Source of the DNA: a bacterium
Lineage (GTDB): Bacteria > T1Sed10-126
DNA: 36,154 bases
Direction of reading: 5' to 3'
Assembly (NCBI GenBank): GCA_003554945.1
Contig: PWHN01000034.1
Span: 1 to 36,154 of the forward strand
Shown here: positions 1 through 36,154 of the stretch, one piece after another
Numbering within the stretch: the first letter of the stretch is position 1
Layout: every line of letters begins with the position of its first letter
Made by a program: the position numbers and the translations under genes
Notes under the pieces: generated by a model
Told to the model about the DNA's origin: nothing
What the model saw: the letters and a program-made list of their open reading frames with translations, nothing else
Database searches by the model: none

Positions 1-128
1 GATAGGTCATGTCTTATTTTCGGATTTATGTATTCTTCAAGGCCCTGGAGGGGCCTGTTTTGAAGAATACATACCTCGGAGTCCCGCTGGAGGCGGGATG
101 AGAATGAGAAAATAAGATATGATCTATC
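1..128 (+). ncRNA. Folded repeat element, copy A (candidate structured RNA)
   Basis: Bases 1-21 pair with 108-128 over 21 bp; the only departures from Watson-Crick pairing are two G-U pairs (6/123 and 11/118), which exist only if the + strand is the RNA. Inside lies a 14-bp stem (27-40 with 60-73) capped by a 5-bp hairpin (41-45/51-55, five-base loop) with an unpaired TGTT at 56-59. Then come the conserved CCTCGGA (74-80), a GC-rich hairpin (about 82-98) and GAGAATGA (100-107). The 5' arm probably starts before the window: the bases after the 3' arm (TTGC) could pair with a GCAA, and GCAA precedes the same arm sequence at 35979. Neither arm is followed by a T run, so it is not a simple terminator. 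No known family was recognised; an ERIC-like palindromic repeat is the main alternative. Confidence 0.5.
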
Positions 129-7228: not shown

Positions 7229-7300
7229 TGGGGGCTGCTGGGTTCGAACCAACGACCTCCTGCTTGTAAGGCAGGCGCTCTTCCGCTGAGCTAAGCCCCC
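7229..7300 (-). tRNA. tRNA-Val (anticodon UAC)
   Basis: Seventy-two nt on the minus strand fold as a full cloverleaf: acceptor GGGGGCT/AGCCCCC, D arm GCTC/GAGC, anticodon stem CCTGC/GCAGG with loop CTTACAA, T arm GTTGG/CCAGC with TTCGAAC. The anticodon TAC (7266-7268 on the complement) reads GUA valine codons. The 3' CCA is not encoded: discriminator A is followed by TTTTTC, which may help termination. It lies just upstream of the acyltransferase gene on the same strand. Confidence 0.95.
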
Positions 7301-32868: not shown

Positions 32869-32894
32869 ATCAAGCCTCTCCCTTGAAGTATAAC

Positions 32895-33343
32895 GCCGGC
32901 GCCGGTGGTAAGCCGGATTCTGTTCTAAGGCGACCATTTATCTGGGCTGTTTCTTGCGAGACAGCTCAAGCGGCCCACCAAAGTTTGGCCTTGCTCCCGG
33001 GTGGGGTTTACCAGCACGCCAGCCTTGCGGCCGGCGGCCGGGCGGTAGCAGCAGACAGCCTGTGCCGGAGGCCCGGCACAGCCGCTGCCACATCCACCCG
33101 CTTTTCACCTTTTCCGAGCACTCAATCGAGTCTGCAAACGCCGAAGCCGTTAGCATTACTCCCTTGCCACCTCGATTGAGTGCTCGGTAGTATAGTCTCT
33201 GCGGCACTGGCCGGCCCCTCCTGTTTTATTCAAACAGACGGGGCTCCCGGATTTCCCGGGACACCCAATAGAGAGTCCGGACTTTCCTCCCAATCTGTTT
33301 TTTCAATTGTACAGATCAGGCGGTCGCTCACACCAGCGCCGGC
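32895..33343 (-). ncRNA. rnpB: RNase P RNA (catalytic RNA of tRNA 5' processing)
   Basis: The minus strand carries the bacterial RNase P hallmarks: GAGGAAAGTCCGGACTC near the 5' side, AAACCCCACCCGGGAGCAAGG in the central region, GGGCCGCTTGAGC, AGATAAATGG and ACAGAATCCGGCTTA near the 3' end. The ends pair as helix P1 (GCCGGCGC...GGCGCCGGC). The length is about 449 nt. A 17-bp perfect stem (33114-33130 with 33171-33187) extends one arm in the P10-P12 region far beyond the usual size. The gene lies 24 nt after mnmA and 26 nt before the kinase start, with no terminator visible. Confidence 0.93.
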
Positions 33344-35721: not shown

Positions 35722-35775
35722 GCTTAACACCTTTTTATCAAAAAATTAAATCAACTAAATTTTTGGATTTTTTCC

Positions 35776-35913
35776 GTTCTGAGGACCGATATATTTCTGA
35801 CATCATTCTCGTGGCCCTCGGGGCCACTTCCGAGGTATAAAGACCCCAAAACAACCCCATCCTGGGGTTTGAGGTCTTTATAAATCCGTCAGAAACACAT
35901 CGGTCCTCAGAAC
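35776..35913 (-). ncRNA. Folded repeat element, copy B (possible leader of the iscU operon)
   Basis: The outer arms 35888-35913 and 35776-35801 pair over 26 bp with only two G-U pairs, both valid only on the minus-strand RNA. The inner 14-bp stem (35869-35882 with 35836-35849, one G-U) carries a 5-bp hairpin with a five-base loop and the same unpaired TGTT as copy A. Then follow TACCTCGGA, a GTGGCCC/GGGCCAC hairpin and GAGAATGA. The stem sequences differ from copy A while stem length and junction bases are kept. It ends 54 nt before the iscU start on the same strand. Confidence 0.5.
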
Positions 35914-35978
35914 TACCGTTTCTCTTTTACAAAGTAGGGACCAATTCCTATTTGACCAAAAATAAACGTATGGTGCAA

Positions 35979-36154
35979 GATAGGTCATGTCTTATTTTCG
36001 GATAATGAAGATGTCTCTTTGACAACATACAGGGAGCTACCTGCAGGTGTTTTTCGGAATTATAGCCGGTTGCAGGCCACGATGGCCTGGTTTGCAATCG
36101 GCTATACCTTGGAGGTTGCCTGGACCATTTAGCAATGGAGGCTTTTTCCTTCCA
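35979..36154 (+). ncRNA. Folded repeat element, copy C (variant, cut by the window end)
   Basis: It begins with the same 25 bases as position 1, then diverges. Two small hairpins (about 36010-36028 and 36031-36044) follow. Next comes CGGAATTA and a 14-bp stem (36061-36074 with 36093-36106, one G-U) with a GGCC hairpin and five-base loop, then CCTTGGA. The 3' outer arm is not visible before the window ends. It looks like an enlarged relative of copies A and B. Confidence 0.4.

Follow-up and report, generated by a model that had tools for sequence, protein, structure and literature searches.

Copies of the element in the window

The window (36,154 nt) is the whole of one contig (G000:C106), broken at repeats of the family described here, and belongs to a 2.2-Mb MAG of 121 contigs. 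Three copies of a folded element, designated A, B and C, were found at its two ends. The only Rfam matches in the window were a bacterial RNase P class A RNA (32893-33341, minus strand) and a tRNA (7229-7300, minus strand).

Copy A is a complete element on the plus strand (1-128). The arms of its closing stem P1 (1-21/108-128) enclose GGATT (22-26, between the P1 5' arm and P2), stem P2 (27-40/60-73, with inner pairs 41-45/51-55, loop 46-50 and bulge 56-59), CCTCGGA (74-80), hairpin P3 (81-87/93-99, loop 88-92) and GAGAATGA (100-107), which lies between P3 and the P1 3' arm. The composite repeat of which copy A is part ends, on the same strand, in the TIR-like TTGCTTGCAAAACGCTAAACTTTAG at 129-153. 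A further repeat with C-rich and G-rich palindromic stretches (ccccttcaaggggggaaaagaacgggctccctttg) is located at 270-420, and several Nitrospirota copies (L222, L233, L264 and L267) have similar palindromes, CCCCCCTT...AAGGGGGG, inserted into their P2 loop.

Copy B is also complete and lies on the minus strand (35776-35913), with a P1 of about 26-28 bp. It is bordered at 35755-35775 (minus strand) by a diverged TIR-like end of its composite, which reads CTAAATTTTTGG on the plus strand, and at 35914-35978 (minus strand) by a conserved linker between head-to-head elements (CGTTTATTTTTGGTCAAATAGG...) that is repeated elsewhere in the genome. The P1 5' arm and CGGA of a second, A-type element then occupy 35979-36002 (plus strand), and its 3' half is beyond the contig end. 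Copy C (36033-36154, plus strand) is nested within the P2 region of this element and is itself truncated by the contig end; its P1 5' arm (36033-36055), P2 (about 36061-36106) and TACCTTGGA (36105-36113) could be assigned, all on the plus strand. In copy C an inserted hairpin, about 100 nt long, separates CCTYGGA from the true P3, and full-length relatives place the GAGAATGA of this copy past the contig end. The same nesting of a C-type element inside an A-type P2 region was observed at 29-289 of another contig of this genome (C17).

The first-pass annotation had described three copies whose folds share one architecture. The copies are real and folded: the minimum free energy z-scores against dinucleotide shuffles were -9.2 for copy A, -12.7 for copy B and -4.8 for the partial copy C, and none of 200 shuffles folded as well as copies A and B. 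The common architecture, second hairpin included, held for copies A and B; the second hairpin of copy C is not homologous to their P3, because the extra hairpin precedes the true P3. The inner stem, first read as 14 bp with a short hairpin and five-base loop, is more exactly, in copies A and B, 14 bp followed by a 3'-side bulge of 4 nt and about 5 further bp that carry the 5-nt loop.

Architecture of the family

On the CM strand the order of the element is P1 5' arm, C-GG-N-TTT, P2, CCTCGGA, P3, GAGAATGA and P1 3' arm, with a total length of about 110-150 bp. P1 is a long variable closing stem of about 20-28 bp, and its sequence differs in each sequence family. In the source genome P2 begins with 14 bp and, beyond the 3'-side bulge of 4 nt, continues with about 5 bp closed by a 5-nt loop; P3 has 6-7 bp and likewise a 5-nt loop. 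The junction letters are almost invariant, while nearly all stems differ among copies with pairing kept.

P3 can be replaced by quite different hairpins. In E' copies its place is taken by a 13-bp stem whose loop has about 50 nt, and C' copies, the type to which copy C belongs, carry the extra hairpin ahead of P3. We considered whether the variants with a longer P3 might be an autonomous element with an open reading frame; the E' variants hold a longer hairpin only and no gene, and this reading was therefore rejected.

The Nitrospirota and Latescibacterota copies have an arbitrary P3 loop and an arbitrary distal half of P2. Two pairs away from the junction, their P1 contains a tandem G·A/A·G step (G-A in 54 and A-G in 60 of 66 copies) that breaks the stem; the source-genome copies lack this step. 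The copies of a Latescibacterota MAG (L121, L247-L252) have a GAGGTCC-like P1 end, unlike the Nitrospirota copies listed.

Copy number and distribution

A motif that makes no use of pairing, TACCTYGGA-N-GAGAATGA, occurred at 24 places in the source genome, and the reversed control pattern at none. Each distinct motif copy has predicted P2 and P3 hairpins, and nearly all are closed by a predicted P1. A covariance model built from 20 of these motif-found copies gave 62 matches in the source genome, about 58 of them at E<1e-4, so that the MAG holds about 58-60 copies. The element is recurrent, as first proposed, and no Rfam family matched it at the gathering or E-value threshold, in agreement with the original statement that it had been matched to no riboswitch, ribozyme or repeat family.

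Scanning one genome per species with the pattern returned 45 stretches, mostly from Nitrospirota MAGs. The first-pass annotation had suggested a covariance-model search of related genomes, and model R2 detected the element in all 14 genomes reached through the pattern scan. Copies were found in Nitrospirota, Nitrospinota, Latescibacterota and Hydrogenedentota, all in MAGs, with 98, 87 and 82 per genome in three Nitrospirota, 55 in one Latescibacterota and 15 in a Nitrospinota MAG. The distribution is patchy, also between related genomes: the element is present in 22 of 148 Nitrospirota genomes and in 7 of 386 genomes drawn around the source genome (the source itself included), and the single other genome of the source organism's family is without it. 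Neither copy A nor the exact pattern was matched in plasmid, phage and viral-contig collections. Pattern matches in Ruegeria and Spirochaetaceae had no covariance-model match and were taken as chance. One copy on an archaeon-labelled contig is the sole copy in that genome and is of the source-genome C type, so this contig is probably mis-binned.

The P2 and P3 loops read CAGGATG in many Nitrospirota copies. As CAGGAUG they resemble CsrB repeats, and the source genome contains CsrA, which raises the idea that the element is an RNA sequestering CsrA/RsmA. This idea is hardly credible, since CsrA was not found in 8 of the 15 genomes that have copies, including some with more than 80, the loops are arbitrary in other lineages, and the Rfam CsrB match was at chance level.

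Mobility of the element

Copy A is found again on four contigs, at 98-100% identity. In the source genome, the E and D families lie in transposon-like units of about 200-290 bp, which are bounded by TIRs with the ends GGCTCTRTTGAAATCC / GGCTCTGTAGAAAACC and flanked by 8-bp target duplications. In the E units 60 of 80 duplicated bases match, compared with 30 in shuffled controls (maximum 50), and two of three D units have duplications matching in 8 of 8 positions. The A, B and C families occur as head-to-head elements in units that end in CTAAAGTTTTGCG; only two of these units have clear 7-bp duplications. The TIRs and target duplications expected of MITEs were found for E and D units, and only partly for B units. 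Some E units contain no junction and might be ancestors or deletion derivatives; the junction is thus not clearly needed for movement. D-type units also occur next to or within H-type elements (CTTATTATCGGATTTT; L020 and L046).

Outside the source genome, most copies stand alone between operon genes without a TIR-bounded unit, and several Nitrospirota genomes have solo copies with P1 as the outermost feature. Through the comparison of orthologous gene pairs we found sites without the element: one pair overlaps by 4 nt in G103 and is separated by 153 nt with the element in G101, and further junctions lacking it leave 3, 9 and 28 nt between the genes, where those that contain it measure 147-179 nt. 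At three orthologous junctions the element is present in both genomes, with P1, P2 or P3 changed; in one of them the distal part of P1 reads ATAGAG/CTCTAT in one genome and GCTC/GAGC in the other. At locus L270/L232 (G104/G102) the flanks are shared and the element is in opposite orientation, possibly by inversion (perhaps through the P1 arms) or by independent insertion.

Y1_Tnp proteins, many of them RAYT-like in size, were present in 14 of the 15 copy-bearing genomes, and the source MAG encodes five of about 290-320 aa, also RAYT-like (G000 C103, C94, C16, C14 and C79). They would suit repeats of the REP/REPIN type moved by RAYT transposases. We regard this as very unlikely, because no copy was found within about 2 kb of 20 Y1_Tnp genes or near those five, and because the elements are 110-150 bp long with a three-way junction, and not 20-40-bp hairpins tagged by GTAG or CGTC (PMC3733652).

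The original proposal of a new structured RNA family had been staked on finding no Rfam or MITE explanation, and on stems with significant covariation. No Rfam family accounts for the element and the covariation is significant (below), but MITE units with TIRs and 8-bp duplications do exist. Considering these units, the orthologous junctions without the element and the patchiness between related genomes, the element is a dispersed mobile repeat, which had been missed, and a structured RNA family is only half of the account. The other half stood: the fold covaries, the junction is almost invariant and the G-U pairs are strand-specific. That the element acts as RNA is our reading.

Covariation and strand-specific mismatches

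The stems were said to differ between copies and yet to pair, and the larger samples bear this out. Among the source-genome copies, 32 of 40 pairs had double changes, and the covariation score was 0.530, compared with 0.188 in shuffled and at most 0.220 in slid controls. For 66 copies from other genomes, 86.5% of positions were paired (56.7% when shuffled) and the score was 0.663 (0.180 shuffled, at most 0.120 slid); this alignment was fitted to the model, so its figures lean towards the model. We also read 67 non-redundant copies from sequence anchors. Their P3 was 95% paired, compared with 58% when arms were exchanged between copies, and comprised 63 different hairpins; their P1 was 93% paired against 63%, a biased value because copies needed P1 pairing for inclusion. 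Covariation beyond both shuffled and slid controls, which is required of a structured RNA, was found.

The departures from Watson-Crick pairing had been described as G-U on the strand set by the motifs. This was upheld on many more copies: G·T outnumbered A·C mismatches on the CM strand by 75:15 in P1, by 97:27 in the 67 non-redundant copies and by 70:9 in P1 of the fitted alignment, all counts ignoring the kinship of copies. The mismatches of the CM strand being G·U/G·T and not A·C, one strand is seen by selection as a folded single strand.

Template-switch correction of palindromes could be the source of part of the covariation. In its full form, this explanation takes the copies as ordinary MITEs whose imperfect inverted repeats are kept paired by template-switch repair, without selection on the fold, as might be suggested by the source-genome copies within units with TIRs and target duplications and by the units without a junction. 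It is quite unlikely as the whole explanation: repair to a perfect palindrome predicts no excess of G·T over A·C, so the observed ratios speak against a pure palindrome-repair origin, and both the invariant unpaired junction letters across phyla and the non-Watson-Crick G-A step are left unexplained.

The G·T excess by itself does not separate RNA from ssDNA. The element may instead be a folded ssDNA site, such as attC or the ends of IS200/IS605, of which the CM strand is read by a recombinase with no role for RNA. Strand-specific wobble is expected here too, G-T being better tolerated than A-C, and the long near-perfect P1 palindromes (20-28 bp), the mobility of the element and its inversion between genomes at L270/L232 fit as well. 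We consider this possible and still rather doubtful, given that a conserved tandem G-A step and an almost invariant junction are usual in RNA and that no copy lies within about 2 kb of the 20 Y1 transposase genes examined. An attC site is marked by an R box (GTTRRRY) and goes with an integrase; no box of this kind was noticed in the element.

Orientation relative to genes

The copies lie between co-directional genes. Taking the longest ORFs as flanking genes, we found that for copies from other genomes (n=64) both flanking genes were antisense to the CM strand in 39 cases and both sense in 10 (P=4e-5); in the source genome the numbers were 12 and 6, which is not significant. As a check for replication-strand bias, GC skew was calculated in the complete bin1476 chromosome, where it was weak and gene-driven, and so uninformative on any link with replication. 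The orientation bias most likely arises because copies inserted in sense are selected against; this would be in keeping with an RNA that undergoes termination, cleavage or binding. For ERIC in Yersinia, an orientation-dependent effect on mRNA is described in the cited part of PMC2229807.

Proposed nature of the element

The best explanation, to which we give a probability of roughly 0.6, is a non-autonomous, MITE/ERIC-like mobile repeat with a conserved folded single strand that is recognised in trans. The arms change sequence and pair again around a nearly invariant three-way junction, indicating that a folded single strand, probably RNA, is preserved. Such a repeat would encode the folded strand. 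Its three stems change freely in sequence provided that pairing holds, and the joining strands are nearly invariant. To us it seems likely that selection acts on RNA from the CM strand and not on ssDNA. With about even chances, the junction (C-GG-N-UUU / CCUCGGA / GAGAAUGA, joined in many lineages by the tandem G-A step) is the binding site of a protein acting in trans, which would thereby maintain the fold. It is likewise a balanced guess that most surviving copies are antisense to operon genes because a copy inserted in sense would lead to interruption or processing of the mRNA, by analogy with ERIC in Yersinia as presented in the cited part of PMC2229807.

We might further speculate that the CM-strand transcript is a new kind of active RNA, perhaps a small self-cleaving ribozyme, or else the guide or substrate RNA of a transposition system. 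This is unlikely; if true, it would explain both the invariant junction and the scarcity of sense insertions in operons.

Comparison with known systems

The D and E units of the source genome are presumably comparable to ISL3-family MITEs, judging by their GGCTCTRTWGAAA ends and 8-bp duplications. However, no ISL3 transposase was found in the source genome (MAG 93.5% complete), the B/A/C units have other ends, and most copies elsewhere have no such unit. The covarying fold and conserved junction are shared with the structured RNAs of Rfam, none of whose families matches.

ERIC (also IRU or RU-1) is an imperfect palindrome of about 127 bp, dispersed and intergenic in transcribed regions, according to the part of PMC2229807 cited here. 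The present element is likewise a dispersed intergenic palindromic repeat, of about 115-150 bp, but its stems are rewritten between copies and the constant part is the three-way junction. No shared consensus was seen when copies were compared by eye, Rfam having no ERIC model. ERIC is restricted to enterobacteria and relatives, whereas the element occurs in the four phyla named above. REP sequences (20-40 bp, with unpaired GTAG or CGTC tags and links to RAYT) are also palindromic, multi-copy, extragenic and present in several phyla (PMC3733652); among the copies listed, no 20-40-bp hairpin with such an unpaired tag was seen. Correia/NEMIS, RUP, RPE and CIR are MITE-like and give hairpin transcripts, but each is confined to one or a few genera, and no conserved three-way junction is noted for them in the cited part of PMC2229807.

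The element thus represents a new family of mobile structured repeats that crosses phyla, with ERIC/MITE-type behaviour and outside every named family tested. As a rule, the small repeats of bacteria are defined by their sequence and within one group; in this family the fold and a junction of roughly 30 letters persist across several phyla while all stems turn over. With up to about 100 copies per genome, the family is a natural and deeply sampled mutational record of one fold, and the junction with the tandem G·A step offers a target for direct tests of the RNA or ssDNA machinery that spreads the element.
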